Below the pieces are notes generated by a model. That model worked only from the letters and a program-made list of their open reading frames with translations. It was not told the origin of the DNA and did not search any database. Below, in pieces: positions 25,694 to 44,699 of a DNA stretch of 64,000 bases. Made by a program: the position numbers and the translations under genes. The stretch is from contig NZ_BOOW01000030.1 of NCBI RefSeq assembly GCF_016863435.1, forward strand, positions 248,001 through 312,000, written 5' to 3'. The stretch comes from Sinosporangium siamense. GTDB taxonomy: Bacteria; Actinomycetota; Actinomycetes; Streptosporangiales; Streptosporangiaceae. Each line of letters begins with the position of its first letter. Position 1 is the first letter of the stretch.

Positions 25694-26452
25694 ATGTCAC
25701 AGAAGAGCTTCGCCAGGCTGAGGAGATTGTCGTGCGAACGATGCGGGACGCACAGCACACATGAAGTATGGGAGGTGGTCGACGCCGTCGATCGCCCTGA
25801 TCTCGTCAAGCGGATAATCACGGGCCGGATAAGACTGGTGAACTGCCCCGGATGTGGGACTGACGCCTCCGTGTCCGCCCTTCTCATGGTGCTGCGGCCA
25901 CAGCGGTGGCCCCGACCGATGGTCATTCCGGTCCACAGGATTCCGGTTGTCATGGGACAGGAAGCGTACTCGCTGTTGCTGGCCGGCTTGCAGGCGCTCT
26001 TCAACCACTATGGCCTTCGGGACGCGGGCGTTCCGTTCGATCCGGACAATCTCCTCATCGTGCCCCTAAAACTGCTTCCTCTCGCCTTTGACCGAGACAT
26101 CGGCGCCGACCTGGAGGCGGAATCCCGGAACGGCCTGAGGCCGTTGACGCCTCTCGAACACCACTATGCGGAATGGCTCGGAGAACTAAACACACAGGCC
26201 TGGAGGACTCATGCGATCGCGCTCCTCTCCGCTCTCTTTGAATGCGAGAGCACCGATGCTCTCCGAAGGCTGATCGAAGAGAATTCGCAGCTTCTCGAAG
26301 AGCGTATGGATGATTTGGTCTCCTCGGTGATGGAGGTGCTGCGCGAGGAGAGGCCCGAGTTGCTTCCCCTCGTGGCCAACCGGAGGTTGCTGCTTCGGCA
26401 AGTCCGCAGATACGGGATCGAGCGTGTCTTCAGGACGGAGGCTGAGCGGTGA
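25694..26452 (+). CDS. CpXC-type zinc-binding protein, first gene of the CHAT operon
   Basis: The N-terminus carries paired cysteine motifs (LSCERCGTHSTHEV at ~13 and LVNCPGCGTDASV at ~48) in the arrangement of the CpXC domain. A mostly helical C-terminal half (~130-252) follows, rich in Glu/Leu/Arg. It probably binds zinc and is cytoplasmic. Its TGA overlaps the GTG of the next gene (GTGA), so translation is coupled to the TPR-CHAT protein. CpXC proteins often sit beside large repeat proteins of unknown role; no activity is known. The 272 bases upstream are shared with the divergent CxxC gene. Confidence 0.7.
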   Translation: MSQKSFARLRRLSCERCGTHSTHEVWEVVDAVDRPDLVKRIITGRIRLVNCPGCGTDASVSALLMVLRPQRWPRPMVIPVHRIPVVMGQEAYSLLLAGLQALFNHYGLRDAGVPFDPDNLLIVPLKLLPLAFDRDIGADLEAESRNGLRPLTPLEHHYAEWLGELNTQAWRTHAIALLSALFECESTDALRRLIEENSQLLEERMDDLVSSVMEVLREERPELLPLVANRRLLLRQVRRYGIERVFRTEAER

Positions 26453-29400
26453 GCGGGCCCGAGCGAGAGCTCAGTGCCTCTTCGGGGGCGGCTCTGCTGG
26501 CGATCGCGGGGATCCACAAGCTAGAGCGAGACGAGTTGTGTGAGCTCATCGAACAGGCCTTACTCGAGATGCCCCCGGAGGAGCAGGACCTAGGTCTCGA
26601 ATGTTCGCATGGAGAGATCGTGAGCCTCAGAGACGTGTTCGCGATAGCGCTGGCGGAGCAGCTCCTGAAGGGCCGGAGGCCGTTCAATGTACGGGAGGCG
26701 CTACACCTCTATGGCGAGCTGGGAGGCCTGCGTGAGACCGCGCCCCTGAACTGGGCGGAGGTCCAGCACAACATCGGCATGGCCTACAGGTTGCTGGCGC
26801 GGCCCGGGTCCGTCGAAGATCTCGTTCCGGCCAAGGAGGCGCTGGAACGGGCTCTGACGGTTCGCACACCGCAGGCGGACCCGGAAGGCTGGGCGGTCAC
26901 CGTCGTCTCCTTGGCCGAGTTCTCACTTGAGGCTCCCGCACATGACACGCGGCGTGTTGGTGAGGGCGTGCGGCTGCTCAAAAAGGCTCTCCGCGAGGCG
27001 CCGCCGGGGCTGCCCGCCCAGTACCTCGCCCGCTTCCGGTCGGCGCTCGGTTTAGCCTTGCTGCGAGGCGCGGACGGATCTACCGGACAGGACCTGAACC
27101 GGGCGATTGACCTGCTGCGGTCGGTCGCATCGACCCCAGCCATGGAGGAAGATCCGGATCTGAGGCGCACAGTGTGGATCAATCTGGGCACAGCTCTGTC
27201 GAAGCGGGCGGAACAGCTAGGGGATCCGGCCGACTGGGACTCGGCGATTACGGTCCTGCGCATGGTCTCCGCTGAGATCTCGGCAGATCTGGAGCCGCGG
27301 TACTGGGTCGCCGCGAACGGCAATCTCGGGATCGCGTTGCTCCACCGTGTCGGCGCCGACCACGACGCAGATCTGGCTGAGGCGATCGAGGTCTTCCGGG
27401 CGGTGTCCGCGCTCTCCGCACGGTCGCGGCTACAAGAGGAGTTCGCCGCATCGCAGAACAACCTGGGCAACGCCCTCCGAGCACGTTTGGCCGGGGATCG
27501 GGACGAGGACCTCTCGGAGGCAGCCGAAGCATACCGGTCGGCTCTAAAGATCTGGACGGAGCCGACCCATCCCGTCGAATGGGCGCTCACAAACGCGCGG
27601 CTCGCGGATACGCGTTCCGCCCAGGGTGCCTATGCAGAAGCGGTCGAGCTCTTCTCCGGTTCCCTGCGGGTCCTGGATCGCGAGCGGCATCCGTTTGACT
27701 GGGCGGGCGTCGCCAACCGCCAGGCTGCGGCCGAGGAGCACCTCGAACGGGGGGACGGCCACGGGCTGCGGACCGCGATCGCGCTCTACGAAAAGGCCGT
27801 CCGAACGCTCGGACCGGGTCGATTCACCCATCTGAGCGCGTCGATCCAGAGCAACCTTGGCGACGCTCACCTGCGGATGGCGCAGTTGACCGGCTCGCCT
27901 GTCCACGCCGTCAGGGCTGTCGAGTCGTTTCGGGAGGCCCTGCGGCTCTGCCCAGTGGAGGAAGCGCCGCTCGAATGGGCGCAGAGCGCCACCGGGCTGG
28001 GACTCTGCCTGGCCGAGCACGGCAGGAGCACCGAGGCCGTCCAGTGGATGCGGAAGGCCCTTCAGGTCCTTGAGACGGGGGGACTCACCTCACACGTCCT
28101 CCATACAGCGGAAGCCCTCGGCCACGTTCTCTCGAGGTTTCACCGCTGGAATGAGGCGCGCACCGCCTTCCACACAGCGCTGGTGGCTGCGGAGCGGCGG
28201 CTCGCCACCGCGATCCTCAGGAAGTCCAAGGAGAAGGTCCTATCGGATCTGGGCCGTCTCAGCATCATCGCCGCTTACATCACCGTTAAAGCCGGATATC
28301 CAGCCGAAGCTGTAGACCTGCTGGAGGCGGGACGCGCACGGCTGCTCGCCGACGCACTAGAGCGCGAGGATCCGGTTTGGGCGGAGACGACCCCCCAGTC
28401 TGAGGCCTACCGGGCGGCAACGCTACGACTCGCGGAAGCGGAGGCTGCGTCCGCGAGGCTCCTGCGAGGGGCGCCCCCAGGCGAGGAGAGATTCCTTCGC
28501 CGGGCGGAGCAGTCAGTCCGGGCCGAGCTCAGAGAGGCTTCCGCAGCCTTCGAAGCGGCAAGGGCGGCTACGGCGGATACCTCATCCAAAACTCCGCGTC
28601 AGCGGCGGAACGAGATCGTGATCTACCTTCTCGCATCGTACATCGAAAGCATCGGGCTGGTGGAGACACCGGACGGCGCCGTCACCGTGATCAGATCCGA
28701 GATCCCCACGCTCGCCGAGCTGGAAAAAGCGGTGAGAGGAGCCGACGGCCACCCCGGCATCACCGAGGCACGCGGCGAGGCGCTGGAAGCCCTCCTGCGC
28801 GGGATGGGAGGCATCGCCGAGCGGATCAGCCGGACGCTGACCGCGCTGGGAGCATCTTCGGTCACCCTGGTCCCCTGCGGGCCGTTCGCCGCGCTGCCGA
28901 TCCATGCCTTCTCCTTCGCCGCCTCAGACGGCGAACGATGCCTGCTCGACGACTTTGACGTCGGATACGCCCCCTCGACGACCGTCCTGGACGCGGCGTA
29001 CCGCGCAGGGGAACGCGCGGTACGCCCGTTCGCGGTGGGCATCGCCGACGAGCACAGCGGTCTGCGCCATACGGGACAGGAAGTCGCCGAACTGCTATCC
29101 CGCATGCCCGGACAGGTCATGCCGGAAGGCATCGAGGTGCCGGAAGTACTGGCGCTCATCGCGGACGCCACCCATATCCACTTCGCCTGTCACGGGAGAT
29201 CGATTGCGGACCGGCCGGTCGACTCCTTCCTAGCGCTTGACAACAGGGTCCGGCTCACCGTGCTGGACCTCCTCACCGCGGGCCCAGGAACGTCGTCGAG
29301 CACACGTCTGACCGCGGGTCCGCTCATCGTGGCCTCGGCCTGCGAGACGGCCGTGGCCGACACCCATCACACGCCGGAGGAGTTCGTAGGACTGGCCGCG

Positions 29401-29730
29401 GGCTTCCTGGCCGCCGGAGCCCGCGGATTCATCGGCACACAGTGGCCGTCGGGCGATCTGACTTCGGCCCTGCTCATGACCTACTTCTACGAGCAGCTCC
29501 TGCCCGGCGCCGACGGGTCGCCCGTTCCGGCCAGGACGGCACTGTGCCGCGCCCAACGCTGGCTCAGATCACTCACAGGCGCGGAGCTGGCCGCCTACGC
29601 CGCCGCACGGCCCCGCCTGGCCGCCAACTTAGGAGAGTCCTTGGAGCTCGCCCGTGGATACCCAGAGCACCGGTTCTTCGCCAAGGCTCAAGCCTGGGCT
29701 CCCTTCGTCTACATCGGAGCGCCGCTGTGA
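26449..29730 (+). CDS. TPR-CHAT protein (caspase-like protease)
   Basis: The 1093-residue protein has a helical N-terminal part, TPR-like repeats from ~70 to ~620 (for example WAEVQHNIGMAYRLL, AASQNNLGNALRARL, SIQSNLGDAHLRMAQ), a linker coiled coil (~625-720) and a C-terminal CHAT domain (~720-1093). The caspase-type dyad is visible: His915 in HFACHGRS and Cys965 in VASACETAVAD, followed by GLAAGFLAAGARGFIGTQWP. CHAT proteases are relatives of caspases and separase that cleave partners after a sensor signal; the CRISPR-linked Craspase is the best known. Translation is coupled on both sides by GTGA overlaps. Substrate and trigger are unknown. Confidence 0.92.
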   Translation: MSGPERELSASSGAALLAIAGIHKLERDELCELIEQALLEMPPEEQDLGLECSHGEIVSLRDVFAIALAEQLLKGRRPFNVREALHLYGELGGLRETAPLNWAEVQHNIGMAYRLLARPGSVEDLVPAKEALERALTVRTPQADPEGWAVTVVSLAEFSLEAPAHDTRRVGEGVRLLKKALREAPPGLPAQYLARFRSALGLALLRGADGSTGQDLNRAIDLLRSVASTPAMEEDPDLRRTVWINLGTALSKRAEQLGDPADWDSAITVLRMVSAEISADLEPRYWVAANGNLGIALLHRVGADHDADLAEAIEVFRAVSALSARSRLQEEFAASQNNLGNALRARLAGDRDEDLSEAAEAYRSALKIWTEPTHPVEWALTNARLADTRSAQGAYAEAVELFSGSLRVLDRERHPFDWAGVANRQAAAEEHLERGDGHGLRTAIALYEKAVRTLGPGRFTHLSASIQSNLGDAHLRMAQLTGSPVHAVRAVESFREALRLCPVEEAPLEWAQSATGLGLCLAEHGRSTEAVQWMRKALQVLETGGLTSHVLHTAEALGHVLSRFHRWNEARTAFHTALVAAERRLATAILRKSKEKVLSDLGRLSIIAAYITVKAGYPAEAVDLLEAGRARLLADALEREDPVWAETTPQSEAYRAATLRLAEAEAASARLLRGAPPGEERFLRRAEQSVRAELREASAAFEAARAATADTSSKTPRQRRNEIVIYLLASYIESIGLVETPDGAVTVIRSEIPTLAELEKAVRGADGHPGITEARGEALEALLRGMGGIAERISRTLTALGASSVTLVPCGPFAALPIHAFSFAASDGERCLLDDFDVGYAPSTTVLDAAYRAGERAVRPFAVGIADEHSGLRHTGQEVAELLSRMPGQVMPEGIEVPEVLALIADATHIHFACHGRSIADRPVDSFLALDNRVRLTVLDLLTAGPGTSSSTRLTAGPLIVASACETAVADTHHTPEEFVGLAAGFLAAGARGFIGTQWPSGDLTSALLMTYFYEQLLPGADGSPVPARTALCRAQRWLRSLTGAELAAYAAARPRLAANLGESLELARGYPEHRFFAKAQAWAPFVYIGAPL

Positions 29731-31188: not shown

Positions 31189-31560
31189 CTATCGCCGTAC
31201 ATCCGCGATCAAGGGCAGCGTTCTCAACCGCTGCTCGATGTGAGAGGCCACGAAGGAGGGAAGAGTCGGTTCCCTCTCACCTGCGGCCACGTGTCGGCCA
31301 TGGCTGTCACGGTGTCCTTGACCAGGCCGACCACCCGGACGGGATCCAGCCTGGTTTGACGATCCAATCGCCTCCCTGCCCGGACATGGGCAGGGCCAGC
31401 CCTTTCCCCTCCCAGCACATGGAGAATTTGGCCTGAACTCCAGCCAAGGAGAACCGCACCGTACCGGCGCCCTCGGCGAGGCTTCGCAGGTCCTGCTCCG
31501 GCACCACAGCGCCGCCGGACTCCATGACGACACGGACGTTCGGGGCGTCGAGGGGTTCAC
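31189..31560 (-). pseudogene. HipA-like kinase remnant
   Basis: One frame reads VRFSLAGVQAKFSMCWEGKGLALPMSG and GDWIVKPG, matching the start of the HipA kinase domain (SLAGxQxK ... WIxKP). It then jumps, through a deletion of roughly 200 residues and a frame change, to a HipA C-terminus-like end (AMADTWPQVRG, then ASHIEQRLRTLPL). The phosphate-transfer Asp and ATP-site regions are gone, so it cannot be active. HipA toxins phosphorylate aminoacyl-tRNA synthetases. No HipB antitoxin is intact nearby. Confidence 0.65.
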
Positions 31561-32511
31561 CGTGCCCCTCGGCAGAGAGACGTCTGGGAAAACGGGACAG
31601 GAGACCGAGGAAGTTGAGTTTGCCGTGAACGTTGCCGAGTCGAGTCTGGTATAGATCCGGCCGCCATGGAGAGAGCGGCGCACGCGGCAGGAGCCTGATG
31701 AGGTTCTGTGCGCTGCTGAGAGGGTCGGTGTGGATGGCTGCCATGTCATGTCGCAGCGCTGCGGCGCTGAACTCGCGGCGCGGCGCCGCAGCGGCGCCTC
31801 GCCAGATCCAGCGGCGGAAAAGCTCTGCCGGTCTGCCGGCGAGAGAGCCGAACCGCACGACAAATCGCACCAGCACAGGGATGCACTGAAGGGGGGCACC
31901 GGCTTGATATGAGGGATCTCTGCCACATCGCGGAAAAAGCCGACGACGTGGCTGAGCACCCTCTCAGTTTGCGTGATCGCGACCCGGCGATCGTTTCCGA
32001 TCCGACTGTAAAACTCTCGACCGGCTATCACATCGCCGGAGGCGGTCAAGCTTTGTACGAGAACCCATTCGGGCAGTCTTCCGAAACCGAATGCTTGAGC
32101 ATTGGCGCTCAAAGTGTCTAGGTCATCGCGACCCGGAACCTCATTGATGGACTCCAGCACGGCGAGCAGCTCCGCCGAGGTCGACCGCCGATGGGTCCTG
32201 TCTATACGCTGAACGATGCTGCGCGGGACATGGATGTCCTCGCCGGGACAATGTAAGTGGGAATCCAGTGGTCACGCAGGGCGCTTACGGCTTGATCAGT
32301 CCGGGCGACCTTTTCCGCGCTCAAGTGCGGCCGTGCACGGATCCATGCGCGCACTTGAGTGGGCTGAAGGGCAATCGCCAAGGGGAATGTTCGTCTCCCG
32401 GCCTCTGCAGACGCGCTGGAAGGCGGGCAAGCGTAGGCGCCTCCTGCGTGCGAGGTCCACCAACTCGCCCGGCGTGATGCTGACGGCCCGTGGCCGGGTC
32501 ACTGCACTCAC
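31561..32511 (-). pseudogene. DUF262 (GmrS-like / ParB-like NTPase) gene remnant
   Basis: Pieces of a DUF262 protein are spread over several frames in the right order. They are ITPGELVDLARRRRLRLPAFQR (its N-terminal motif), VRAWIRARPHLSAEKVARTDQAVSALRDHWIPTYIV, the run through LESINEVPGRDDLDTLSANAQAFGFG and FFRDVAEIPHIK, and finally VRFVVRFG...AELFRRWIWRGAA and LGNVHGKLNFLGLLSRFP. The DGQQR catalytic region is deleted and there are at least two frameshifts. DUF262 proteins act in GmrSD-type restriction of modified DNA. It ends by running into the HipA remnant, so a deletion fused two genes. Confidence 0.65.
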
Positions 32512-32585: not shown

Positions 32586-32595
32586 CGATGCTGGG

Positions 32596-32637
32596 AGCCG
32601 CCTAAGGGAATCGAACCCTTGACCCCTTCATTACGAG
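32596..32637 (-). other. tRNA-Thr 3' half: distal attachment site of the integrative element
   Basis: On the minus strand this reads from the anticodon loop CTCGTAA through TGAAG, a complete T-arm (AAGGG-TTCGATT-CCCTT) and acceptor strand AGGCGGC plus T; the 5' half is missing. GACCCCTTCATTACGAG (32621-32637) is identical to 44651-44667 in the intact tRNA-Thr. The T-arm differs from the intact gene but is self-complementary, as expected when an element carries its own tRNA 3' end to repair the gene it enters. Direction on the chromosome makes this the element's left end. Confidence 0.82.
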
Positions 32638-32798
32638 GGAAGGGCGGATGCCTCGTCAACGACGTCTTGGCCTGTTCAGACGGTAGATGCGATCCGGTGA
32701 TGTGTGATCATGTAAGGCGGTGTTGCTGTATGCCGCTGCTGTACACCACCTTCGTGGACGTGACCACAGCAGGCTCCCGCAGTGATAAATGCGGCACC

Positions 32799-34166
32799 TC
32801 ACAAAGCAGCTCGAATCTTCGTTCCGAGCCATTCCAGTTCGGGATGTTTCTCGATCCGATCGAAGACTTCTTCCGGCGCCTTGGCATCTCGCAGCATGCA
32901 TAGAATAAAGAGCCAGTATAGCGAATTAGACAGGAAGAGCTGTACCGATGGAGTCTGCTTCATCCGCGTGCCTAGGTGGTGAGCGATGTCGTTGCGATCC
33001 TTTCTGATCGCCTCCGCCCACACCTCCACGTCTCCGACGAGTTTGGCGAAAAGATTTCCCGCCAAGTCGACACATCGCATAAGCCGGGGTTTGAGATCGC
33101 TCCGCGCGTGTCCGAATTTTGTGCGATCGAAAGCTTCTAGGGCAGCCGCACAGTTGAGCAGACGGTCAGAGACAAACATACTCTTCGCGTACTTGCTGGC
33201 CATCACTCTCCCGAGTGCTCCTCGATACTGGCTGGCACTCTCTAGCCATCGGCCAACACCATCAATTCCACCAAAATCGGTGTAGGTGAAGAACATTTCG
33301 TGGTGAGACAGCTTGCCAGGATTTTTGCTCTTGTCCTTGGAGTTCCAGGAAACAAAGAACTCGATTGGCTCCCTGTGCTGACGGTTCCCGCTCTTCCAAA
33401 CCACGTCGGGATGCCAGAACCGCATACCGTCGAACTCCGCCGTACGGCCTGTTGCAATGGAAATTAGATCCTGCAGGTCACTGGCGCGTTCCATGAGCGC
33501 CGGGATAGGACGGAGTGACGACGCATCCAGACGGAAGAAAAATTTTTGTGAAAGTCCCCGCGTAGCGATCCGATCGCCGTCAATAGCGACCGAGTGCTTT
33601 AGCCGCAACGTGTCACCTTCCGGCAGGGAAACGACAGCATCATCCAGAACCCGAGCCTCTAGTTTGATACTCGGAATGTCCGGCGGAAGGTCATCAGTCG
33701 GGAACGCTTGCGTCTCCTTGATCCCACTGTCGCAGATCCAGTGGGTGAGGTAGCGCAACTCTACCGATACACCATCAGCGGTCAGCTCTTCGTCTTTCTC
33801 GAAATATGCACCCTGGAAGATCTGGTTAACATGGATAGTTTCCGTGCCGCTTTGACCGAGGAGATGTCGGGTCATTCGGGAGCGAAAGCAATCTTCCAGC
33901 GTGTATTGCTTACCATCCGCTAGCCCGTGAATACGCGGATAGGTTCCGCTTCTCTCGATCGTGTCCTCAGAGAAGGTAACTACTGTCGTACCATCCGGAT
34001 TCTGCGATTTGTCCCCTTCCTCCATCATTGATCGGAAAGTTCCGATCAATCGGAGCTCCGCACCAGAGTCCAAATCGAAGCGCAGCCTTCCAGCCACTTT
34101 CCGGTCTTCCTGCCCAGGCAGCCACCATTCACCCTCAGCATCGAAGGCGCGGGGGGAGTTACTCAC
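32799..34166 (-). CDS. ApeA-like HEPN antiphage protein
   Basis: The 455-residue protein begins with an ApeA N-terminal-domain-like sequence (AFDAEGEWWLPGQEDRKVAGRLRFDLDSGAELRLIGTF) and ends with a helical HEPN domain (~330-455) carrying the RNase motif R-x4-H as RNDIAHH near residue 405. ApeA is an abortive-infection HEPN protein shown to protect E. coli from phages; members of this domain pair are common in defence islands. Base composition is clearly lower in GC than neighbours, a sign of transfer. The GTG start overlaps the stop of a small upstream frame. The gene appears intact. Confidence 0.8.
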   Translation of the reverse strand: MSNSPRAFDAEGEWWLPGQEDRKVAGRLRFDLDSGAELRLIGTFRSMMEEGDKSQNPDGTTVVTFSEDTIERSGTYPRIHGLADGKQYTLEDCFRSRMTRHLLGQSGTETIHVNQIFQGAYFEKDEELTADGVSVELRYLTHWICDSGIKETQAFPTDDLPPDIPSIKLEARVLDDAVVSLPEGDTLRLKHSVAIDGDRIATRGLSQKFFFRLDASSLRPIPALMERASDLQDLISIATGRTAEFDGMRFWHPDVVWKSGNRQHREPIEFFVSWNSKDKSKNPGKLSHHEMFFTYTDFGGIDGVGRWLESASQYRGALGRVMASKYAKSMFVSDRLLNCAAALEAFDRTKFGHARSDLKPRLMRCVDLAGNLFAKLVGDVEVWAEAIRKDRNDIAHHLGTRMKQTPSVQLFLSNSLYWLFILCMLRDAKAPEEVFDRIEKHPELEWLGTKIRAAL

Positions 34167-34378
34167 AGGTCATCCTTTCTCGGAGAGTGATCGGCTGGCT
34201 GGGACGTTAGCGCACTGAACATCATGATCGAGTACGGCTCGCGTCCGCCAATGGCGTCCGACACGACATCACGGGCTTTCAAAACCAGCTGGCCGGTATA
34301 GCGCTCACCATACTTGACCTCGTTCTTACTGCGGGACCATTTGGGCAGAATTTGCAGATTCTCCTAGTCCACGGGCAT
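34163..34378 (-). pseudogene. Small ORF coupled to the ApeA-like gene, with an in-frame TAG
   Basis: The frame starting at ATG 34378 reads MPVD, then TAG (34366-34364), then continues open for 66 codons (ENLQILPKWSRSKNEVKYG...) and ends in a TGA that overlaps the ApeA GTG. The coupling and coherent hydrophilic sequence suggest a real gene, or its remnant. AGGAG lies right at the TAG, about nine bases before an ATT codon, so a shorter product from a rare start is possible. No family recognised. Confidence 0.45.
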
Positions 34379-34449
34379 CCAATATCACCCGATTAGTTAC
34401 TAATATCCAGCTTTAGCAAGATCAACATTCGCGCCCTTGACCGATTAAG

Positions 34450-35053
34450 CTACCCACCCCTCACTTGGAGGATCTCCATCGCTTGGAGCACGTCAGCGGC
34501 AACATGATCCGCCTTGTATTTGTGCTCCGGCCACGTCCCTCGGTCGATCCAGACCGTACGTAGACCGGCCGCCTGACCCCCTTCAATATCGGCAATCGGA
34601 TGGTCGCCCACCATCCATCCCCCAACTGCAAGGGGCATGCCGCACCGTCGAGCGGCGATCTCGAATAGGCCGACCTCGGGCTTGCGGATGCCTTCGAGCC
34701 CTGAGAGCGCGTAGGCGTCGACGGCTTCGGCCAGCCCCGTCCGCTGGATCTTTCCGAGCTGGTTGTCCGCCGTCCCATTGGTGACGATGCCCACCTTCCA
34801 CCCGGACGCACGAAGACGCGCCAGCCCTTCCAACACCTCGGGCCTGCAGCGAACGAGGTACGGCATGCGTCGGCGGTAGCGGCTCCACAGCTCTTCAATC
34901 GACTCCGAGAGAGCGAAGTGGTCCCGCACCTTGCCGAAGAAGGTCTCACGGTGCGGATAGCCGGCTCGGTTCAGGTCGAGTAGCCAACTGATCGCCTCGT
35001 TGCCAAGAGCGTGCTCCCCGGTTATCAAGGTCAAAAAGTGCGAGTCGCTGCAT
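34450..35053 (-). pseudogene. HAD-family phosphatase gene, frameshifted after motif I
   Basis: The start ATG at 35053 reads MQRLALFDLDN, the beginning of HAD motif I (DxDxT). The reading frame then breaks. The rest of the enzyme continues in another frame as EHALGNEAISWLLDLNRAGYPHRETFF, with motif II (GIVTNGT), motif III lysine (GIRKPEVGLFEIAARR) and motif IV (MVGDHPIADIEGG). A small deletion removed the conserved T-L after DLDN, so the nucleophile loop is damaged and translation does not run through. The downstream frame alone lacks the catalytic Asp. Intact relatives are ~230-residue haloacid-dehalogenase phosphatases. Confidence 0.75.
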
Positions 35054-35214
35054 AACGGTGCATCCTACGTGGTCGCCATCTCGGGCAAGAAGAAGATCCA
35101 CAGTTTCCTCTGATCCCTTCTCAAAGAATCTTGGACCGTGTGAAACTGACATATCGGATCAGGGGCGCCCTACCAACCGATCCGGTTCGACAACTCCGCA
35201 GCGAACGGACGTAT

Positions 35215-38200
35215 ATGGCCTCGACGACTCCCCCCAAGCCGCTGCTCGAAAAGGCCGTAGAGGCGGTGGCGCGTTTCGGCAAGTCCGCCGCCGTGAAGCT
35301 GAATGGCGGCGGCCAGCCCGAGGATCAGCTCCGCTCCCCGCTGGAAAAGCTCTTCGAAGATATGGCCGAAGGACTCGGCGTCTCCGTGACGATGATCGGT
35401 GAGACCTCGTTGGCCACTCTGGGGGTACGGCCTGACTACGCCGTCGAGGTGGCCGGTGCGCGGGTGGGCTACATCGAGCTCAAAGCCCCTGGCCGCGGTG
35501 TGCCGTCGACCTGGACACCCAACAAGCACGAAAAGCGCCAGTGGGAGAAGCTGCAACTGCTGCCCAACGTCCTCTACACCGACGGAGCGCTGTGGGCGCT
35601 GTACCGCAATGGGGAGTTGGTCGGGCAAGTCGCTCGGATGAACGGCGACGTCCGCAAGGCGGCCGGCAAGCTCACTCCCTTGGATAGCGAGTTCGCCCGC
35701 GTCATCTCCGACTTCCTGTTATGGAAGCCTGACCCTCCCCGCAGCATCCGCCAGCTCGTACGCGCAGTGGCCGGCCTGTGCAAGCTGCTGCGCACGGAGG
35801 TCATCGAAAGCATCGAGCGCGAGGAGCGCGGTGAAGAGGAACGCAAGAGCTTCACCGAGTTGAGCGAAGATTGGCGCAAGCTGCTGTTTCCTGGCCTGAC
35901 ACCCGATGAGTTCGCCGACGCCTACGCCCAGACGGTCACCTTCGCTCTGCTGCTCGCCCGGGTAGACGGCATCTCCTTCGAGGGCCGCACCCTCGGCCAG
36001 ATTGCCGGCCAGCTCGGTAAGACCCATTCACTCATGGGCAAGGCGCTGGCCGTACTGACCCATGACGCGGTCGAAGGCCGCAGCGTTGTCGCAGAGACGC
36101 TCCGGCGGGTCGTCGGCGCGGTGGAATGGGACAAGATCAGCGACGGCTCGGCGGACTCCTATCTCCACCTCTATGAGCGTTTCCTGGACATCTACGACGC
36201 CGACCTTCGCCGAGAGAGCGGGTCGTACTACACCCCGAACGAGGTGGTCTTGTTCATGGTCCGCTTCGTTGATGACATCCTGCGAACCAAGTTCGGACGG
36301 GAAGGCGGCTTCGCCAATGACGACGTGATGGTCGTCGACCCCGCGATGGGAACGGGGACTTACCTACTCAACATCGTCAGCAACGTCGCCCGGACCGTGG
36401 AGGAGGAAGAGGGTAAGGGTGCTGTCCCAGGACAGCTCAAGAAGCTGTTCGGTCGCCTCATCGGGATGGAACGGCAGACCGGGCCGTACGCGGTGGCCGA
36501 ACTTCGGTTGAACCAGGCGCTCAAGTCCGAGCACGGCGCGGAGATCGCCGAGAAGGACCAGAAGCTCTACGTCGCCGACACCCTGTCGAACCCCTTCGAG
36601 GACTCCGAGCTCTCCGGCGTGGTGTACCGGGAAATCGCCAAATCCCGGGAAGAGGCCAACCGGATCAAGCGTGACACTCCGGTTCAGGTGGTCATCGGCA
36701 ACCCGCCCTACCGCGAGCGTGCCAAGGGCTTCGGTGGCTGGATCGAGCAGGGGGCGGAGAACTCCGGCCACGACGTTCCGCTGAAAGCCTTCAAAGCGGC
36801 AGGGCTCGGGAAGTACGAATACGTCCTGTCGAACCTGTATGTGTACTTCTGGCGGTGGGCAACGTGGAAGGTCTTCGACGCCCACCCCGAACAGCCCGCG
36901 GGCGTCGTCGCCTTCATCACCACCTCGGGATACACGACCGGCCCCGGCTTCGCCGGCATGCGGGAGTACCTGCGCCGAACCGCTGACGAGGGCTGGATCA
37001 TCGACCTGTCGCCGGAAGGTCATCAGCCCGACGTCCCCACTCGGGTCTTTCCCGGCGTTCAGCAACCACTCTGCATCGGGGTCTTCGTGCGGTACGGCGA
37101 AGGCAACCGGACGACCCCCGCGCTGGTCCACCACGTCAGCCTGTCAGGCCACCGGTCCAAGAAGTTCGCGGCCTTGGAGCAACTGCGCCTCGACAGCTCG
37201 GAGTGGGTCAACTGCGCGACCGGCTGGACGGACCGGCTTCAACCACCCGGCGGGGACGACTGGCTCAGTTACCCGGCGCTCGGCGACTTGATGCCCTGGC
37301 AGGCACCGGGCATCAAGCCCAACCGGACATGGGTCTACGCCCCATCCCCTGAGGTGCTCCGTACACGATGGAACCGGCTGATCAAAGCCCCGCTCAGCGA
37401 CAAAGCGATCTTGTTCAAAGAGAGCGACGCCCGGAAGATCGACACCATGTTGGTCCAGCCGGTCACCGGGTTCGCCGAACACAGCGGAAAGATCAAGGAC
37501 GAGACGAAGCCTTGCCCAGAGCCGATCAGGGTGGGGTACCGGTCCTTCGACCGGCAGTGGGTGATCCCGGACGCGCGTGTCCACCACCGGCCTAGCCCGG
37601 ACCTCTGGAAAGTGGCCAGTGAATTCCAGGTCTTCGCCACAGAGCAGCATGCCCACCCCATCGAAAGTGGCCCCGGCCTCGTGTTCACGGCGTACGTGCC
37701 TGACATGCACCACACCAATGGCCGGGGCGGGCGGGTACTTCCGCTGTACCGAGACCGAGCCGCTGGTGCGGTCAACTTCGCGCCCGGCCTGGTTCGTACT
37801 CTCGCTCAACGCCTCGGCCTGCCGGTCTCTGCTCCCGATGTGTTGGCCTACATCGCTGTGGTGACCGCGCACGGCGGCTATACCGCCCGCTTCACCGAGG
37901 AACTCCGTACCCCCGGCGTACGCATCCCGCTCACCGCCGACCCGGAACTGTGGGCGCACGCCGTACGGCTCGGCCGACGAGTTCTGTGGCTGCACACCTA
38001 CGGTGAACGCTTCGCCGACGCCTCCGAGGGCCGCCCTGCTGGGCCTCCGCGTCCTCTGACCGGCTGGGCCAAATCTCAAAGAGTCATCCCAGGCGATGCC
38101 GACTCCATGCCGAACGAGATCACCTATGATCCGGACACTCTGACCCTGCACGTCGGCGCCGGAGAGATATCCCCGGTGCGCCCAGAGGTGTGGGCATACG

Positions 38201-38517
38201 AGGTCTCTGGCATGAAGATCGTCAAGAAGTGGTTCGGTTACCGGAAGCAGAAGCCGGCGGGCCGCAAATCGTCACCGCTCGACGACATCCACACCGAGGA
38301 ATGGCCGGCTGAGTTCACCACCGAATTGCTCCGGCTCCTTCACGTACTCACCCTCTGCGTAGAACTGGAGCCCGAACAGGCCGACCTACTGGAGCGGATT
38401 TGTGCCGGTCCGCTCGTCACCGTGGCCGACCTGGAACAGGGGAACGTGTTCCCTGTCCCCGCCGCTGCCCGTAAGCCTCCGGCCGCTGAGTCCCCCGACA
38501 CCCCGACCTTGTTGTAA
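35215..38517 (+). CDS. Single-chain restriction-modification enzyme (type IIG / ISP-like)
   Basis: A 1100-residue protein. Residues ~45-110 contain a PD-(D/E)XK nuclease core (VRPDYAVEVAGARVGYIELKAPG). A helical linker follows, then an N6-adenine methyltransferase (~330-560) with SAM motif I VVDPAMGTGTYLL and catalytic motif IV VVIGNPPYRERAKG. The remaining ~500 residues should be the target-recognition part. No helicase motifs appear, so it is not a full type I or type ISP translocase. One chain would both methylate host DNA and cut unmethylated DNA. The start ATG 35215 fits the family better than 35131. The frame is intact within a damaged mobile element. Confidence 0.85.
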   Translation: MASTTPPKPLLEKAVEAVARFGKSAAVKLNGGGQPEDQLRSPLEKLFEDMAEGLGVSVTMIGETSLATLGVRPDYAVEVAGARVGYIELKAPGRGVPSTWTPNKHEKRQWEKLQLLPNVLYTDGALWALYRNGELVGQVARMNGDVRKAAGKLTPLDSEFARVISDFLLWKPDPPRSIRQLVRAVAGLCKLLRTEVIESIEREERGEEERKSFTELSEDWRKLLFPGLTPDEFADAYAQTVTFALLLARVDGISFEGRTLGQIAGQLGKTHSLMGKALAVLTHDAVEGRSVVAETLRRVVGAVEWDKISDGSADSYLHLYERFLDIYDADLRRESGSYYTPNEVVLFMVRFVDDILRTKFGREGGFANDDVMVVDPAMGTGTYLLNIVSNVARTVEEEEGKGAVPGQLKKLFGRLIGMERQTGPYAVAELRLNQALKSEHGAEIAEKDQKLYVADTLSNPFEDSELSGVVYREIAKSREEANRIKRDTPVQVVIGNPPYRERAKGFGGWIEQGAENSGHDVPLKAFKAAGLGKYEYVLSNLYVYFWRWATWKVFDAHPEQPAGVVAFITTSGYTTGPGFAGMREYLRRTADEGWIIDLSPEGHQPDVPTRVFPGVQQPLCIGVFVRYGEGNRTTPALVHHVSLSGHRSKKFAALEQLRLDSSEWVNCATGWTDRLQPPGGDDWLSYPALGDLMPWQAPGIKPNRTWVYAPSPEVLRTRWNRLIKAPLSDKAILFKESDARKIDTMLVQPVTGFAEHSGKIKDETKPCPEPIRVGYRSFDRQWVIPDARVHHRPSPDLWKVASEFQVFATEQHAHPIESGPGLVFTAYVPDMHHTNGRGGRVLPLYRDRAAGAVNFAPGLVRTLAQRLGLPVSAPDVLAYIAVVTAHGGYTARFTEELRTPGVRIPLTADPELWAHAVRLGRRVLWLHTYGERFADASEGRPAGPPRPLTGWAKSQRVIPGDADSMPNEITYDPDTLTLHVGAGEISPVRPEVWAYEVSGMKIVKKWFGYRKQKPAGRKSSPLDDIHTEEWPAEFTTELLRLLHVLTLCVELEPEQADLLERICAGPLVTVADLEQGNVFPVPAAARKPPAAESPDTPTLL

Positions 38518-38968
38518 GCGACGACTTCGAGCGGGCTCGGGTGTCTCGGCGGCATGCCGGGCCTGCTGTGACTTGCCGGGGCGCTCGCGCGGATCTCCTG
38601 CCCTGCGTGGCTTCTGGCGGTGGCTCGCCTCGTCATTCGATGGCAAGTGGACCCGTACCGCAAGGCCGCCAGGCCTGAGGAACGGAAGCCACGCGGCAGC
38701 CCTACGGACAGATCATTCAAGACTTCCGGAAGCTCTCTCACTCTGTGGCTGCCGCTTGGCGACCCTCAGCGCGTGGGCGGCGGCGGCCGCGACCGGCCGA
38801 AGAGCCGCAGCGCGGCCGACGACCATCCACGCGCGGCGGGCCGCGAAGCGGATCGCCTTTAAAGCCGTGGAGAAAGTCCTCATCCGGGGCTGCTGCCCTG
38901 TGTCTGTCCTACCCCGTGTCCGCCTGGTGATTGGTGCCCACGGGGCAAGGCCATGTAGGGACTTGGCC
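38518..38968. other. Gap between restriction gene and GntR regulator
   Basis: The 451 bases hold one possible small minus-strand gene (listed separately at 38713-38883) and otherwise nothing I can support. Confidence 0.45.
38713..38883 (-). CDS. Possible 56-residue basic protein
   Basis: The minus-strand frame MRTFSTALKAIRFAARRAWMVVGRAAAL... ends with TGA and has one amphipathic or weakly hydrophobic stretch (VVGRAAALRPVAAAAAHAL) between basic ends. It lies downstream of the gntR gene in the same direction, where pSAM2-like elements keep small transfer-related genes. There is no good ribosome site. The assignment rests on position and composition only. Confidence 0.35.
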   Translation of the reverse strand: MRTFSTALKAIRFAARRAWMVVGRAAALRPVAAAAAHALRVAKRQPQSERASGSLE

Positions 38969-39382
38969 CTACGCCTCGTTGTTGACCTTGATGATCGTTC
39001 GGTCTGCGGGAAGCAGGCGGGTTTCGCCGTTCGGTTCGGTGATGACCAAGATGGGCACGCCTTCGGCTACGCCGAGTTGCTTGCGCTCGGGTTCGGTCGG
39101 CATGCGGGCCGCCACCTGGGCGCTTGGGGCTATCTCGACGATGACGGCCTCGCCGGCGTCGCGGACTCGTGAGCCTCGGAGCTCGGTCACGATCAGTCCC
39201 TCTCCCCTGAGTACGGCCATGGCTCGGCGGACCGAGTCGCGGGAGATGCCGTGCTCGGCGACGTAGTCATTCTCGGCGGGCAGTCGCTGCCCGGGGCGGA
39301 GCTTTCCGTCTTCGATGTCCGTCCGGATCAGGTCGGCGAGCTGCTTGTAGACCGGGCGGTCGGCGCTGGGGTCGATGGCCAT
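38969..39382 (-). CDS. Short GntR-family regulator (KorSA-like position)
   Basis: The 137-residue protein starts MAIDPSADRPVYKQLADLIRTDI and has the GntR winged helix to ~residue 75 (GQRLPAENDYVAEHGISRDSVRRAMAVLRGEGLI). A compact C-terminal part follows, too short for a full UTRA domain. In pSAM2-type elements a GntR repressor (KorSA) silences the transfer/replication activator, and this gene sits in the matching place, divergent from a row of small accessory genes. Two palindromes lie in the shared upstream region. Start ATG 39382 chosen because GntR homology begins there. Confidence 0.8.
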   Translation of the reverse strand: MAIDPSADRPVYKQLADLIRTDIEDGKLRPGQRLPAENDYVAEHGISRDSVRRAMAVLRGEGLIVTELRGSRVRDAGEAVIVEIAPSAQVAARMPTEPERKQLGVAEGVPILVITEPNGETRLLPADRTIIKVNNEA

Positions 39383-39391
39383 GGCATCGAA

Positions 39392-39439
39392 GCTACGTAG
39401 CAGCATACGAGCTTCCGATTGCACGTACATGCGTATGTA
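39392..39439. promoter_or_regulatory. Palindromes upstream of the GntR gene (candidate operators)
   Basis: GCTACGTAGC (39392-39401) is a perfect palindrome. TACATGCGTATGTA (39426-39439) is palindromic with one mismatched pair. Both lie in the region between the divergent gntR gene and the accessory operon, and suit autoregulation by a GntR dimer. Confidence 0.45.
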
Positions 39440-39483
39440 ACTACATTCGAAGAGACGTGACCCCCTCTTGATGGGCTGGGCCT

Positions 39484-39744
39484 ATGACGCTTGAGGAACT
39501 GACGATCCGGTACCCCGATTGGGTGATCTGGCGCGGCGCGGCCGCGGCCGGCCCCGGAGGCTGGTACGCCACCCGGCGCGGCGTCTTCCTCGACAACGAA
39601 CAGCTCCACGCCGGAATGGCGCTGACGGTCAGCGGCGATGACGCCGCCGGCCTCATCCGGGAACTCCAGGAGCAACAGGAGATCGCCTCTCGGCTGGCCG
39701 CAGTGGATCCCGGGGTGACAAGCGCGGCGGGAGATGGGACATGA
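39484..39744 (+). CDS. Small conserved-type hypothetical protein of the element
   Basis: 86 residues (MTLEELTIRYPDWVIWRGAAAAGPGGWYATRRG...), Trp/Tyr-rich at the start with a helical C-terminus. Such short proteins are typical passengers between the regulator and replication genes of actinomycete integrative elements. The stop overlaps the ATG of the next gene (ATGA), indicating an operon. Function unknown. Confidence 0.65.
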   Translation: MTLEELTIRYPDWVIWRGAAAAGPGGWYATRRGVFLDNEQLHAGMALTVSGDDAAGLIRELQEQQEIASRLAAVDPGVTSAAGDGT

Positions 39745-40055
39745 CCGCGCTCCTTCACGATGGTGCGACCGCTGTTGCCATGGCCAAGGAACTCCGTACG
39801 GTGCTGGCGGATCACGGGATAGCGTCCGATGTCCACGACGGGTACGGGCTGGCGCTCGTGTCGATCTGGGTCGGCTTCGTCGTCTGGTGCGACGGAGAAC
39901 GCTTCTGGTGGCGCACCGGGTGGAATCCTCGTCAGTACCGCCCCGTCTACGCCTGGCATCCGGCGATGGAGCCCGCTCGGGCCGCTCATCGGATCGCCCT
40001 GCATTACGCGGATTTCCGTAGGAGGGACGCGCAAGCGGGCGGGAGTGTCTCGTGA
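39741..40055 (+). CDS. Small hypothetical protein, second of the coupled set
   Basis: 104 residues with a Trp-rich core (LALVSIWVGFVVWCDGERFWWRTGW) and alternating strand pattern; no membrane helix is certain. It overlaps the genes before and after by four bases each (ATGA, GTGA). I cannot name a function; position suggests a role in the integrative element. Confidence 0.6.
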   Translation: MTALLHDGATAVAMAKELRTVLADHGIASDVHDGYGLALVSIWVGFVVWCDGERFWWRTGWNPRQYRPVYAWHPAMEPARAAHRIALHYADFRRRDAQAGGSVS

Positions 40056-40339
40056 TCGCGCTGGACGGGTGCCTGAGTCCGCATGTGCCGTTGCCGCAGC
40101 GGGAGCATGTGCGGCTCGTGTGGCGGCTGCCGAATTCGGCGTTGGAGCGGGTGCGGCCGGTGACCTGGACCTGTTGAAGCCGGGCCACGGTGTACGAGCT
40201 GTACGCGGGCGGGGGACGTGCGTTCCTGCGGCGGACGGTCCAACTCGACGGCGGGCACGAGGTTCACTAGACCTCGTCCATGTCGATCGGTGAAGCTCGG
40301 GCGACCTGGACGGCGCTGCTGTCTGGTAGAGCCCGTTAG
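40052..40339 (+). pseudogene. Third coupled small gene, interrupted by two in-frame stops
   Basis: Starting at GTG 40052 (GTGA overlap), one frame reads VIALDGCLSPHVPLPQREHVRLVWRLPNSALERV... to TGA at 40175. It resumes in the same frame SRATVYELYAGGGRAFLRRTVQLDGGHEVH to TAG at 40268, then ends ...GEARATWTALLSGRAR at TAG 40337. The three pieces look like parts of one ~90-residue protein that accompanies the preceding two genes in such elements. Two point nonsense mutations without frameshift indicate recent decay. Confidence 0.6.
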
Positions 40340-40621
40340 ACGGGCGTGGCGGCGTGAAAGGCCCTGGGAGGGGTCATGCCGCCACGCCTGCCAGGAGCCA
40401 CGGGCAGGCTCCTGGCATCCTCCTCCCCCGCCCCGGGGCCACCTGCCCGTGTCCCGGCTCAGCCCCAAGGGGTCGGCCCTCGCCGGCGGTGTCCGTCCGT
40501 CCCCGGCGGACGCCGTCGATGTCGCCTACCCCGAAGAGGTCGGCCTCCGGGAAGGGCTAGGACGTTGCGGCAGTCAGCGGGGCGGGGGAGGAACGGACCT
40601 TACGAAGGGAGAAGACGAGAG
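40340..40621. other. Gap before the CxxC small gene
   Basis: The 282 bases contain inverted-repeat-rich GC sequence but no gene I can support. Confidence 0.4.
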
Positions 40622-40849
40622 GTGACAGTCCCACCGATGGGCTATGGGCTCTCCCCTGTCGACTGCTCGCACGCCTCGGTGCGCTGGACGGTCGACCCGC
40701 AAGGGATCTGGACGGGTGCCCGGTGCGACGGGTGCGGGACCTGGTGGCGGCTGGACCTGATCCCGCCGGACGTGGCGGCACGGCTCACGGGGGGCATGCC
40801 TCCTCGCGAGGCTGCCCGGCCGTTCGCAGCCGGTCGTAGGCGGTCATGA
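40622..40849 (+). CDS. Small CxxC protein
   Basis: 75 residues from GTG 40622, preceded by GAGAG. The core is VDCSHASVRWTVDPQGIWTGARCDGCGTWWRLDLIPPDVAARL; the C..H and CxxC pairs could hold a zinc ion. A longer upstream frame to 40376 is Pro/Arg-rich noise. It lies just before the IS110 remnant. No function can be assigned. Confidence 0.5.
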   Translation: MTVPPMGYGLSPVDCSHASVRWTVDPQGIWTGARCDGCGTWWRLDLIPPDVAARLTGGMPPREAARPFAAGRRRS

Positions 40850-40906
40850 TCTCCCGGGCCGCGGCGTCGGCGCTGAGTCGGTCGGTGTGGATGCGCAGAT
40901 ACCGCC

Positions 40907-41067
40907 GGCGACAACCCCGACCGGCTACGAAGCGAGGCAACCTTCGCCGCCCTATGCGGCGTCAGCCCGATCGAGCACTCCAGCGGCAAATCCCAACGGC
41001 GCCGGCTCAACCGCGGCGGCGACCGCGCCGCCAACTCCGCCCTGTGGCTCATCGCGCATGTCCGGCG
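40907..41067 (+). pseudogene. IS110-family transposase fragment (middle to C-terminal part)
   Basis: The frame GDNPDRLRSEATFAALCGVSPIEHSSGKSQRRRLNRGGDRAANSALWLIAHVRR matches the second conserved domain (Transposase_20) of IS110-family DEDD transposases. The N-terminal catalytic domain is absent. The sequence stops at a short CCGGCG, the left breakpoint of an inversion; the missing C-terminus lies inverted just downstream. Confidence 0.8.
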
Positions 41068-41341
41068 TCGGGCGACGTGACGCCGTAGCGCGAGGGTGAA
41101 GCGCCGCCACAGCTCCGGGGACATGGCGTTGAACAGCACGCTTCCCGCGTAGATGCCTCTATGTCAAGCGGCTGCTGGGGAGGCGGGGTGGGTGGTTGGG
41201 GTCAGTGCGTTGATGATGTCGCGGTAGACCTCTCTGACGATGTAGCGCTTGAGTCGGCGCATGATGTCTTTGCGGTCGTTGCCTTGGGCGGCGCGTTTGG
41301 CCGCATAAGCGCGGGTTCGGGGGTCGTGGATGAACCGCCGG
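41068..41341 (-). mobile_element. Inverted segment with IS110 C-terminus and a piece of rep
   Basis: On the minus strand the segment reads RFIHDPRTRAYAAKRAAQGNDRKDIMRRLKRYIVREVYRDII... to TGA at 41166-41164, the C-terminus of an IS110 transposase. After the stop it reads AGSVLFNAMSPELWRRFTLALRR, an internal part of a pSAM2-type replication initiator. Flipping it restores the transposase (IAHVRRFIHDPRTRAYAAK) in frame and joins the rep piece to its downstream part. CCGGCG (41062-41067) and CGCCGG (41336-41341) flank it. Confidence 0.75.
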
Positions 41342-42092
41342 GCTGACCCTGCGGAAACTACGCGAACAGGCCATGATCTCGTTTGCTAAGGTCGCCGAGT
41401 ACCAGCGGCGCGGCGTCGTGCACTTCCACGCCGTCATCCGCCTCGAAGGCCCCGACGGACCCACCTCGCCTCCCCCCGCCTGGGCGACCGTCGATGTCCT
41501 GGCGGACGCCGTACGGCACGCCGCCTCCGCCGTGGCCGTCACCGTCCCCGCCGCGGGCGACGAACCCGCGAGGGTGCTCCGGTGGGGCGCGCAACTCGAC
41601 GTCCGCCGGATCGCCATGGGCGGGGACCTCACCGAACAGGCCGTGGCCGGCTACATCGCCAAGTACGCCACCAAGGCCGCCGAATGCACCGGCACCCTGG
41701 ACCGGCGGATCAATCCCCTCGACGACCTGGACGCGCTCCCCCTGCGGGAGCACGCCCGGCGACTCATCGCCGCGTGCCTGCGCCTGGGCGCTTTGGAGGA
41801 GTTGGCCGACCTCCGCCTTGTCCAGTGGGCGCACATGCTCGGCTTCCGCGGCCACTTCTCCACCAAGAGCCGCCGCTACTCCACCACCCTCGGCGACCTC
41901 CGCGCCGCACGCGCCGACCACATGCGCGACGAGCAGATCAGCACTGGACGCCTCCCCCTCTTCGAGGAAGACACCGTCCTCGTCATCGCCCATTGGGAGT
42001 ACGCCGGACAGGGCTACTCCGCGGGAGACGCACTCCTTGCCGCCACTCTCACCGGAAACCCCGTGCCTGACCCGAGGGGCATCCATGAATAG
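41342..42092 (+). pseudogene. Replication initiator (RepSA-like), 3' part
   Basis: The frame from LTLRKLREQAMISFAKVAEYQRRGVVHFHAVIRLEGPDG onward is the C-terminal ~245 residues of a rolling-circle-type Rep of pSAM2-like elements. HFHAVIRL is the His-hydrophobe-His metal motif. It continues through AMGGDLTEQAVAGYIAKYATKAAECTG and MLGFRGHFSTKSRRYSTTL. The N-terminal half is missing and a 1-base frame difference exists between the inverted piece and this part. An ATG at 41373 could start a truncated protein, but without the N-terminal domain it should not replicate DNA. It overlaps xis by 8 bases. Confidence 0.78.
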
Positions 42093-42270
42093 CCCCAAGC
42101 TGCTGACCGTCCCGCAGGCCATGGCCGCTCTCCAGGTCAGCCGGTGGACCCTATACCAGCTCATACGCTCCGGCGAACTCGACTCGATCGTGGTCGGCAT
42201 GCGCTGCCGCCGCATCCCCGAATCCGCCCTCAGCGACTACGTGACCCGACTGTGCGAGGAGGCCGCCTAA
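42085..42270 (+). CDS. xis: Excisionase (Xis), MerR-like helix-turn-helix
   Basis: 61 residues: LLTVPQAMAALQVSRWTLYQLIRSGELDSIVVGMRCRRIPESALSDYV is a typical HTH_17 excisionase/DNA-binding motif. In AICEs the order rep-xis-int is fixed and the three overlap, as here (ATG inside the rep end; TAATG overlap with int). Xis bends DNA and directs the integrase to excise the element. The gene is intact although its partners are damaged. Confidence 0.88.
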   Translation: MNSPKLLTVPQAMAALQVSRWTLYQLIRSGELDSIVVGMRCRRIPESALSDYVTRLCEEAA

Positions 42271-43509
42271 TGGGCAAGCGCGCGAACGGTGAGGGCTCGG
42301 TCTTCCCCTACAAGGACGGCTGGGCGGGCTACGTCTGGGTCACCACGCCGGACGGCAAGAAGACCCGAATAATGGGCCTACGGCAAGACCCGCGAGGAGA
42401 CACACGAGAAGTGGCTCAAGCTCCACGACCTCGCGAACAAGGGGCCGGTACCGACCAAACACCCCACGATGGCTGCATACCTGACGCGCTGGCTGGCTGA
42501 AGTGATCGAACCCAACCGGGAGCCGACCACCTACGCCGGTTACGAGCCTCTGGTCCGGCTCTACCTGATCCCCGGCCTGGGCAGGAAGCGCCTCGACAAG
42601 CTCACGGTCCGGGACGTCCAAACCTGGATCAACACGCTGCCGACTCTGTGCACCTGCTGTGACCAGAAGAAGGACCACCGGCGCCCGGAGGATAAGCGGC
42701 GGTGCTGCTCCAAGGGGAAGTGCTGCAAGGACTACCCTTCCCGGAGCACGATCGCGAGTATCCGGCGCGTCCTGCGCTCCGCACTCGGCAACGCCATCCG
42801 CGAGGAGTTGATCTCCAAGAACGTCGCCGGGCTGACGGTCCTGCCCAACGCGAGCAAGACCAAAAAGGCCAAGAGCCACAGCGTGTGGAACGTCGACGAG
42901 GCCCGGCGATTCCTCGAACACGTACAAGAAGCGAAAGAGCCGCTCTACGCCGCCTACGTCCTGATCCTGATTCTCGGCCTGCGGCGGGGCGAGGTGCTCG
43001 GACTGACCTGGGACTGTGTCGACCTTGACGGCGAACAGCTCTGGATCTCCCACCAGCTCAACCGCGTCCGCGGGCAGCTCCTTCACCGGGACACGACCAA
43101 GACGGAGGACTCGACGGCGTCCCTGCCGCTCCTTGGCCTCTGTGTCTCGGCGCTCCGGGACCGCAAACGAATCCAGCAGGAGGCCCGTCATGACGCCGGA
43201 GCGAGGTGGAAGGACTCCAACCTCGTGTTCACCACGAAGAACGGCACCCCGGTCGAGCCACGTAACTTCTACCGGTCCTTCGAACGCTACTGCGAGAAGG
43301 CCGGTGTCCCCCGCATCCGGGTTCACGACACCCGGCACACTTGCGCATCGCTCCTGGCCGCCCTCGACGTTCACCCCCGCGTCGCGATGCGCATCCTCCG
43401 GCACTCGCAAATCTCGGTGACCATGAACGTCTATACGCAGATCCCGGCACCCGAGACGCGGAAAGCGCTGGATCGGCTGAATCAGAGCATCGGCGAGAGA
43501 ATGTCATAG
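42270..43509 (+). pseudogene. int: Tyrosine integrase with a one-base frameshift
   Basis: The gene starts at ATG 42270 (MGKRANGEGSVFPYKDGWAGYVWVTTPDGKKTR) and then loses frame at CGAATAATGGGCC. Removing T42370 gives CGA AAA TGG GCC and restores KTRKWAYGKTREETHEKWLKLHDLANKGP, running through to 43509. The rest has a SAM-like domain with a Cys-rich insert (TCCDQKK... RRCCSKGKCCKDY) and a tyrosine-recombinase domain with catalytic Arg (LGLRRGEVLGL), HxxR (HDTRHT), His (ILRHSQIS) and Tyr (MNVYTQ). A protein from ATG 42469 would lack part of the arm-binding domain. Site-specific recombination into tRNA-Thr is inferred from position. Confidence 0.88.
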
Positions 43510-43550
43510 CGTGTCCTGATTGCTACACAAAACTACTACCCAGTACGCAA

Positions 43551-43581
43551 AAGGCCCTTCCGGATTACTCGGGAGGGCCTT
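43551..43581 (+). terminator. Terminator after the integrase
   Basis: AAGGCCCTTCC / GGGAGGGCCTT pairs over 11 bases with one G-U, followed by CGACGTAGGGGCC. The block resembles the tRNA-Thr terminator at 44587-44617 and its flank (GGGCCTTCGAC is shared), so it may derive from a captured tRNA flank. Confidence 0.6.
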
Positions 43582-43635
43582 CGACGTAGGGGCCACCTAG
43601 CGGATCGTGCCCTGACTTCTTGCAGCTAGGGCGCC

Positions 43636-44442: not shown

Positions 44443-44586
44443 GCCTCGCAGCGTACGCGGGGGACCTGGCGCCCAACGACTGAATTTTTCGCCAAATGCA
44501 CGATCCCCACTGCCTTTCACCTTGTCCACCCCGTCGACCATGGGGAAGATCGGGTTGCTGTACAGCGCTGCTGTACGGACACGACA

Positions 44587-44617
44587 AAGGCCCTCCGGGA
44601 TCATCCCGGAGGGCCTT
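44587..44617 (-). terminator. Terminator of tRNA-Thr
   Basis: A perfect 14-bp stem (AAGGCCCTCCGGGA / TCCCGGAGGGCCTT) with a TCA loop begins six bases beyond the encoded CCA of the minus-strand tRNA. Confidence 0.85.
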
Positions 44618-44622
44618 CGACC

Positions 44623-44699
44623 TGGAGCCGCCTTCGGGATTCGAACCCGAGACCCCTTCATTACGAGTGAAGTGCTCTGGCCGACTGAGCTAAGGCGGC
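44623..44699 (-). tRNA. tRNA-Thr (anticodon CGT)
   Basis: On the minus strand the 77 bases fold as a full cloverleaf: acceptor GCCGCCT/AGGCGGC, D-stem GCTC/GAGC, anticodon stem CTTCA/TGAAG with loop CTCGTAA (CGT, reading ACG), T-arm TCGGG-TTCGAAT-CCCGA, discriminator T and an encoded CCA. It is the integration site of the element to its left; its 3' half contains the 17-bp core (44651-44667) also found at 32621-32637. Confidence 0.96.

Follow-up and report, generated by a model that had tools for sequence, protein, structure and literature searches.

A short open frame overlapping an ApeA-like defence gene in Sinosporangium siamense is probably the decaying tail of a lost DNA methyltransferase gene

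We identified the short open frame that overlaps the start of an ApeA-like gene in Sinosporangium siamense as, most probably, the 5'-truncated and decaying tail of a gene for a PglX/DrmMI-like DNA methyltransferase of about 1,340 amino acids, and not as a partner of ApeA. On sequence comparison we give this reading a probability of roughly 0.92. A preliminary description of the same 64,000-nucleotide stretch of DNA, referred to below as the window, had suggested that the frame might encode an unreported small ApeA partner, a proposal displaced by the match to methyltransferase tails, by the stops in the nearest relative and by the lack of codon-position bias. The ApeA-like gene itself is a real phage-defence gene by its domains and looks intact. 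The features discussed are collected in Table 1.

Table 1. Features of the window and related operons, with the evidence for each
Feature	Coordinates	Strand	Evidence and remarks
ApeA-like gene	32799..34166	-	455 aa, GTG start; ApeA_NTD1 (aa 11-300) and C-terminal HEPN_Apea with RNDIAH (Rx4H)
Short open frame, probable methyltransferase remnant	34166..34363	-	66 open codons; some 55 codons from the 3' end of a gene for a PglX/DrmMI-like DNA methyltransferase; profile match, no codon-position bias
In-frame TAG	34364..34366	-	Codon 5 of the ATG at 34378
HAD-family hydrolase	34450..35034	-	Pfam; 79% identical neighbour at the same place in Streptosporangium amethystogenes (tblastn)
Type ISP restriction-modification enzyme	35218..38517 (provisional start; listed ORF from 35131)	+	Type_ISP_C 1.3e-79, N6_Mtase 3.9e-12 (Pfam)
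GntR-family regulator	38969..39430	-	Pfam 1.2e-13
RepSA (pSAM2 replication initiator), N-terminal half missing	41334..42092	+	Pfam 1.6e-83, profile positions 205-436 of 438; frame opens no earlier than 41334
HTH_17 protein, excisionase-like by position and size	42091..42270	+	Pfam 1.5e-10
Tyrosine integrase	42469..43509	+	Phage_integrase 6.4e-21 (Pfam)
tRNA-Thr(CGT), presumed attachment site	44623..44699	-	ARAGORN
Degenerate second copy of the tRNA-Thr(CGT) 3' part	32594..32645	+	87% over 52 bases; presumed other island end, just past the apeA end
ARMADA Type I-like operons beside ApeA	L013:6796-18964; L014:10191-19899; L033/L046		ApeA of L014 decayed (2 TGA)

The ApeA-like gene

ApeA proteins are HEPN-domain defence proteins. 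The gene had been described in advance as an ApeA-like HEPN defence gene, low in G+C and intact, with an RNDIAHH motif, and the sequence bears this out. Both Pfam domains exceed their curated cut-offs in the window protein, with ApeA_NTD1 (PF18862) reaching 135.2 bits (4e-39) against 25.5 and HEPN_Apea (PF18739) reaching 30.7 bits (5e-7) against 24.4. The PADLOC model PDC-S58 matches at 4.8e-33 and the Cas13-ApeA model weakly, at 0.0023, while a scan of the protein against NCBIfam returned no family. The ORF has a G+C content of 54.6%, against 66.6% for the window. As a motif test we used Rx4-6H, which we take to be the HEPN catalytic signature; it is kept as RNDIAH or RDDIAH (Rx4H) in 8/8 ApeA sequences, the window's included.

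The closest ApeA is that of Streptosporangium amethystogenes (G399), at 86%, and differs from the window gene at 51, 23 and 129 first, second and third codon positions, respectively. With three outgroup homologues, the changes were assigned as 27/9/53 to the window branch and 10/7/9 to the G399 branch (89 and 26 overall), with 87 more sites ambiguous. Judged by this pattern, the window ApeA is under purifying selection. By its sequence it is a known kind of defence gene and a member of a divergent actinomycete clade. It resembles ApeA as a single-gene HEPN defence in having both domains, the Rx4H motif and a restriction-modification gene nearby; it differs in belonging to that clade, known here from sequence, and in the weak match to the Cas13-ApeA model. 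A 2013 survey of HEPN proteins marks ApeA "Yes" in what is apparently its motif column and places ApeA within restriction-modification operons in epsilonproteobacteria (PMC3710099), and one statement in a commentary has the ApeA system consisting of HEPN domains (PMC7699616).

The short frame and its layout

The arrangement that the preliminary description had read from the DNA stands: 66 open codons, a TAG as codon 5 of the best ATG, an AGGAG overlapping that TAG, and a closing TGA (34165-34163) that overlaps the GTG of apeA. The coupling to apeA through GTGA, also part of that description, is present, yet carries less meaning than it seemed to, because the +1 frame is bound to read TGA wherever TG forms the last two letters of the start codon and the next codon opens with A. 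With TTG taken as the start, a TTGA overlap is found at apeA of G399, G282, G005 and G108:C1, and at the last of these an unrelated open frame of 42 codons finishes there. The TAG of the window aligns with a TGA in G399, where it terminates the reading frame of the HAD gene. Within the final bases of the short frame lies AGAAAGGA, which, as read by eye, would act as the ribosome-binding site of apeA. Scanning the short frame against Pfam gave no family, and a promoter and terminator scan of 34100-34600 found none.

Homology to methyltransferase tails

The 62-aa peptide of the short frame was searched in 341 genomes of the family, a search that is not exhaustive, as the tail-bearing genomes G038 and G108 are among the 341 and fell below its threshold. 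Matches were found in 8 of them: one in the window, one broken copy in G399, carrying a TGA and a TAG and adjoining apeA, and six others, all of which lie at the end of an open frame of 1340-1527 aa. These long frames are PglX/DrmMI-like DNA methyltransferases, the two that were tested matching PADLOC DrmMI at 2.5e-60 and 7.2e-65. A class-level profile, which includes the window peptide and with which the best 16 candidates per genome were scored in 394 genomes, gave 30 places in 29 genomes, one being the window and the other 29 falling within frames of 1305-1850 aa. No stand-alone small gene appeared among the matches from these two non-exhaustive searches, and the peptide matched nothing in collections of 72,556 plasmid and 50,697 phage records.

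When a profile built from eight intact methyltransferase tails was searched against the 1401 open stretches of at least 20 aa in the window, the short frame was the sole significant match (E 2e-8, against 0.89 for the runner-up). In a pairwise tblastn comparison, the shared core is a short one of 34 aa, with 50% identity (E 1.3e-4). The catalytic domain of the methyltransferase is missing from the window copy, and about 55 C-terminal codons are left. The window has one other methyltransferase match, at E 0.004, and it lies inside the Type ISP gene; the genome of the window lacks a complete copy of the methyltransferase gene, its one match, elsewhere, being 79 residues long (E 7e-4). In Microtetraspora malaysiensis (G038), and likewise in G108:C3, where ApeA is decayed, an intact tail ends about 190 bases before apeA.

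Decay of the short frame

Between the window and G399, the short frame differs at 19, 18 and 19 first, second and third codon positions, and so lacks the third-position excess seen in ApeA and in the HAD gene (27/30/73); under the constraint seen in ApeA, third-position changes as few as these would have a probability of 6.5e-6. With intact methyltransferases as the outgroup, the changes in the remnant core (34/34/33 sites) fall as 12/7/7 on the window branch and 0/0/1 on the G399 branch. The window lineage is the faster one in both the remnant and ApeA, with a third-position excess there in ApeA alone, and the lopsidedness of the branches in the remnant core, 26 against 1, exceeds that in ApeA. 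By this pattern of change the short frame is dead and drifts without codon-position bias. The G399 copy has a stop inside the core despite its single core change, while the window copy has gained 26 changes.

Distribution among ApeA loci

We compared eight near-complete ApeA homologues of at least 41% identity, those of the window, G399, G282, G005, G108:C1, G038, Nonomuraea sediminis (G305) and Geodermatophilus. A partner protein could be looked for upstream of other ApeA genes, as had been suggested beforehand, and related loci with no trace of it would speak against its existence. The short frame is open in one of the eight loci, that of the window, and at the apeA start of none of the other seven; in G005, G305 and Geodermatophilus, the 200 bases upstream of apeA hold nothing similar. 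By the preliminary description's own yardstick, these loci count against a partner. G038 has no match in the 200 bases before apeA because its intact methyltransferase stops about 190 bases upstream. The DNA just upstream of apeA is shared by G399 and the window (z 36.8). In G282 there is a shorter trace, with a z of 14.1 against the DNA of G399 and with a score against the intact tail that was reached by 59 of 500 shuffles; we rejected it as a kept small frame, since gaps break the frame and a stop is present. The match in G108:C1 is weak and gappy, with 4 of 500 shuffles reaching its score, and we did not take it for a remnant. The counts of eight and nine loci used here exclude a further nine ApeA matches that are more distant; in the DNA around them, 2-4 kb for eight and 20 kb for one, neither the short frame nor ARMADA genes were found (best E 0.48).

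Association with ARMADA Type I

DruE/YprA-like and DpdE/DrmD/BrxH-like helicase genes accompany the relatives' methyltransferase in 9 of the 9 loci compared, and at one relative's locus PADLOC matched DruE at 4.9e-95 and assigned the middle gene to DpdE/DrmD/BrxH. The preprint of Bell et al. (2025) gives the gene order of ARMADA Type I as a YprA/DruE-like helicase, a BrxHII/RapA-like helicase and a PglX-like methyltransferase (PMC12458937). The three-gene operon of the relatives has this same order, and the window frame would descend from the end of the third gene; the window differs in keeping about the last 55 methyltransferase codons alone. The term HEPN does not occur in the main text of the preprint (PMC12458937).

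Among the nine closer ApeA loci, six have either ARMADA Type I beside ApeA (G038, G108:C3 and G305) or its probable scar (the window, G399 and possibly G282). In G305 the operon starts about 2 kb from ApeA and is oriented away from it. Six other ARMADA loci had no ApeA match within the 14-20 kb examined. ApeA and ARMADA Type I have been neighbours several times in the Streptosporangiaceae, and ApeA can outlast the larger system. In the window lineage, we infer from the relatives that the two once formed a single locus; no intermediate was found. In G305, a UvrD-family helicase gene lies directly before ApeA (L033:11432-12088).

Alternative readings of the short frame

The frame could instead be a translated ApeA partner, an antitoxin or a regulator, begun at a rare start codon after the TAG. 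Its 66 open codons, its overlap with the apeA start and an AGGAG placed before possible ATT or CTG starts would fit such a gene. However, the closest relative carries stops in it, it has no codon-position bias, and it is absent at other ApeA loci; nor do the family and class searches, non-exhaustive as they are, or the plasmid and phage records offer a stand-alone homologue. We regard a partner as very improbable. The frame could also be an accidental open stretch, unrelated to any gene. When the 283 bases upstream were put through 5000 dinucleotide shuffles, the frame stayed open for at least 66 codons in 152 cases (about 3%), and open length by itself is therefore weak evidence. Chance does not, however, account for the match to methyltransferase tails, which is significant and specific, keeps the coding frame and lies before apeA as in the relatives; with the profile match at E 2e-8 against it, this explanation is close to negligible.

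A further alternative accepts the origin from a methyltransferase and asks whether the remnant has been kept as a leader, untranslated or briefly translated, that tunes the translation of apeA, with its 3' end alone being of importance. The DNA before apeA is common to G399 and the window and more weakly to G282, and the likely ribosome-binding site of apeA lies inside the remnant. Against this, G005, G305 and Geodermatophilus have no similar leader, so the family does not need one, and the similarity may reflect common descent alone. A retained leader seems to us unlikely, and the reading as a decaying methyltransferase tail is the one that we carry forward. Speaking against that reading are the 66 codons still open in the window, the branches of the remnant core, which are more lopsided than those of ApeA, and the shortness of this core.

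Proposed history and mode of action

If the short frame is a methyltransferase tail, apeA would have stood behind an ARMADA Type I operon in an ancestor, as it still does in M. malaysiensis. A deletion, predating the split from S. amethystogenes, would have spared some 55 codons at the very end of the methyltransferase gene, and this leftover would have drifted since, except perhaps for the final bases that hold the ribosome-binding site of apeA. A wider possibility, which we consider doubtful, is that in the Streptosporangiaceae this ApeA clade was at first an accessory of ARMADA Type I, with an RNase that arrests growth in support of a DNA-targeting system, and that ApeA has here outlived its partner, with the methyltransferase tail as the scar. 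The six closer loci with ARMADA Type I or its scar fit this idea; the nine more distant ApeA matches and the six other ARMADA loci, in the DNA covered around them, speak against it.

Gao et al. (2020) reportedly found that one gene suffices for ApeA defence, which acts through abortive infection. In the window, infection would presumably raise a nucleotide signal that is sensed by the N-terminal domain of ApeA, and this signal, by analogy with the family, would switch on RNA cleavage by the HEPN domain and lead to growth arrest. ApeA would act alone, and the short frame would have no protein role at any step. The comparison also removes a false lead, as a short frame over the start of a defence gene can descend from the end of a neighbouring gene since lost, and counts of differences per codon position against the nearest relative reveal this quickly.

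A probable surrounding island

The ApeA-like gene lies at one end of a 12 kb stretch, from 32594 to 44675, that is bounded by two copies of the 3' part of tRNA-Thr(CGT). Elements of the pSAM2 type in actinomycetes presumably carry RepSA, an integrase, an excisionase and a GntR regulator as their usual gene set. Like them, the window has an integrase, an HTH_17 protein, RepSA, a GntR regulator and a presumed tRNA attachment site, and the Type ISP and HAD genes also lie between the two tRNA copies; it differs in that its Rep protein is without the N-terminal half and its tRNA repeats are 87% alike. We infer that the stretch is probably a degenerate pSAM2-like integrative element, in which ApeA looks like cargo at the far end. 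In G399, genes for RepSA and an integrase lie about 10 kb from ApeA, and no tRNA was found in the 20 kb stretch around it.

Some other frames in and near the island may be recorded. Between the integrase and tRNA-Thr lies a frame of 292 aa (43639-44514) with no Pfam match at 0.001. The stretch 31310-31876, taken by eye for a broken HipA-like kinase, had no Pfam match at 0.001 and was not kept as a candidate. At 26449-29730, the window encodes a protein of 1093 aa with repeats, the C-terminal part of which resembles a CHAT peptidase by eye.
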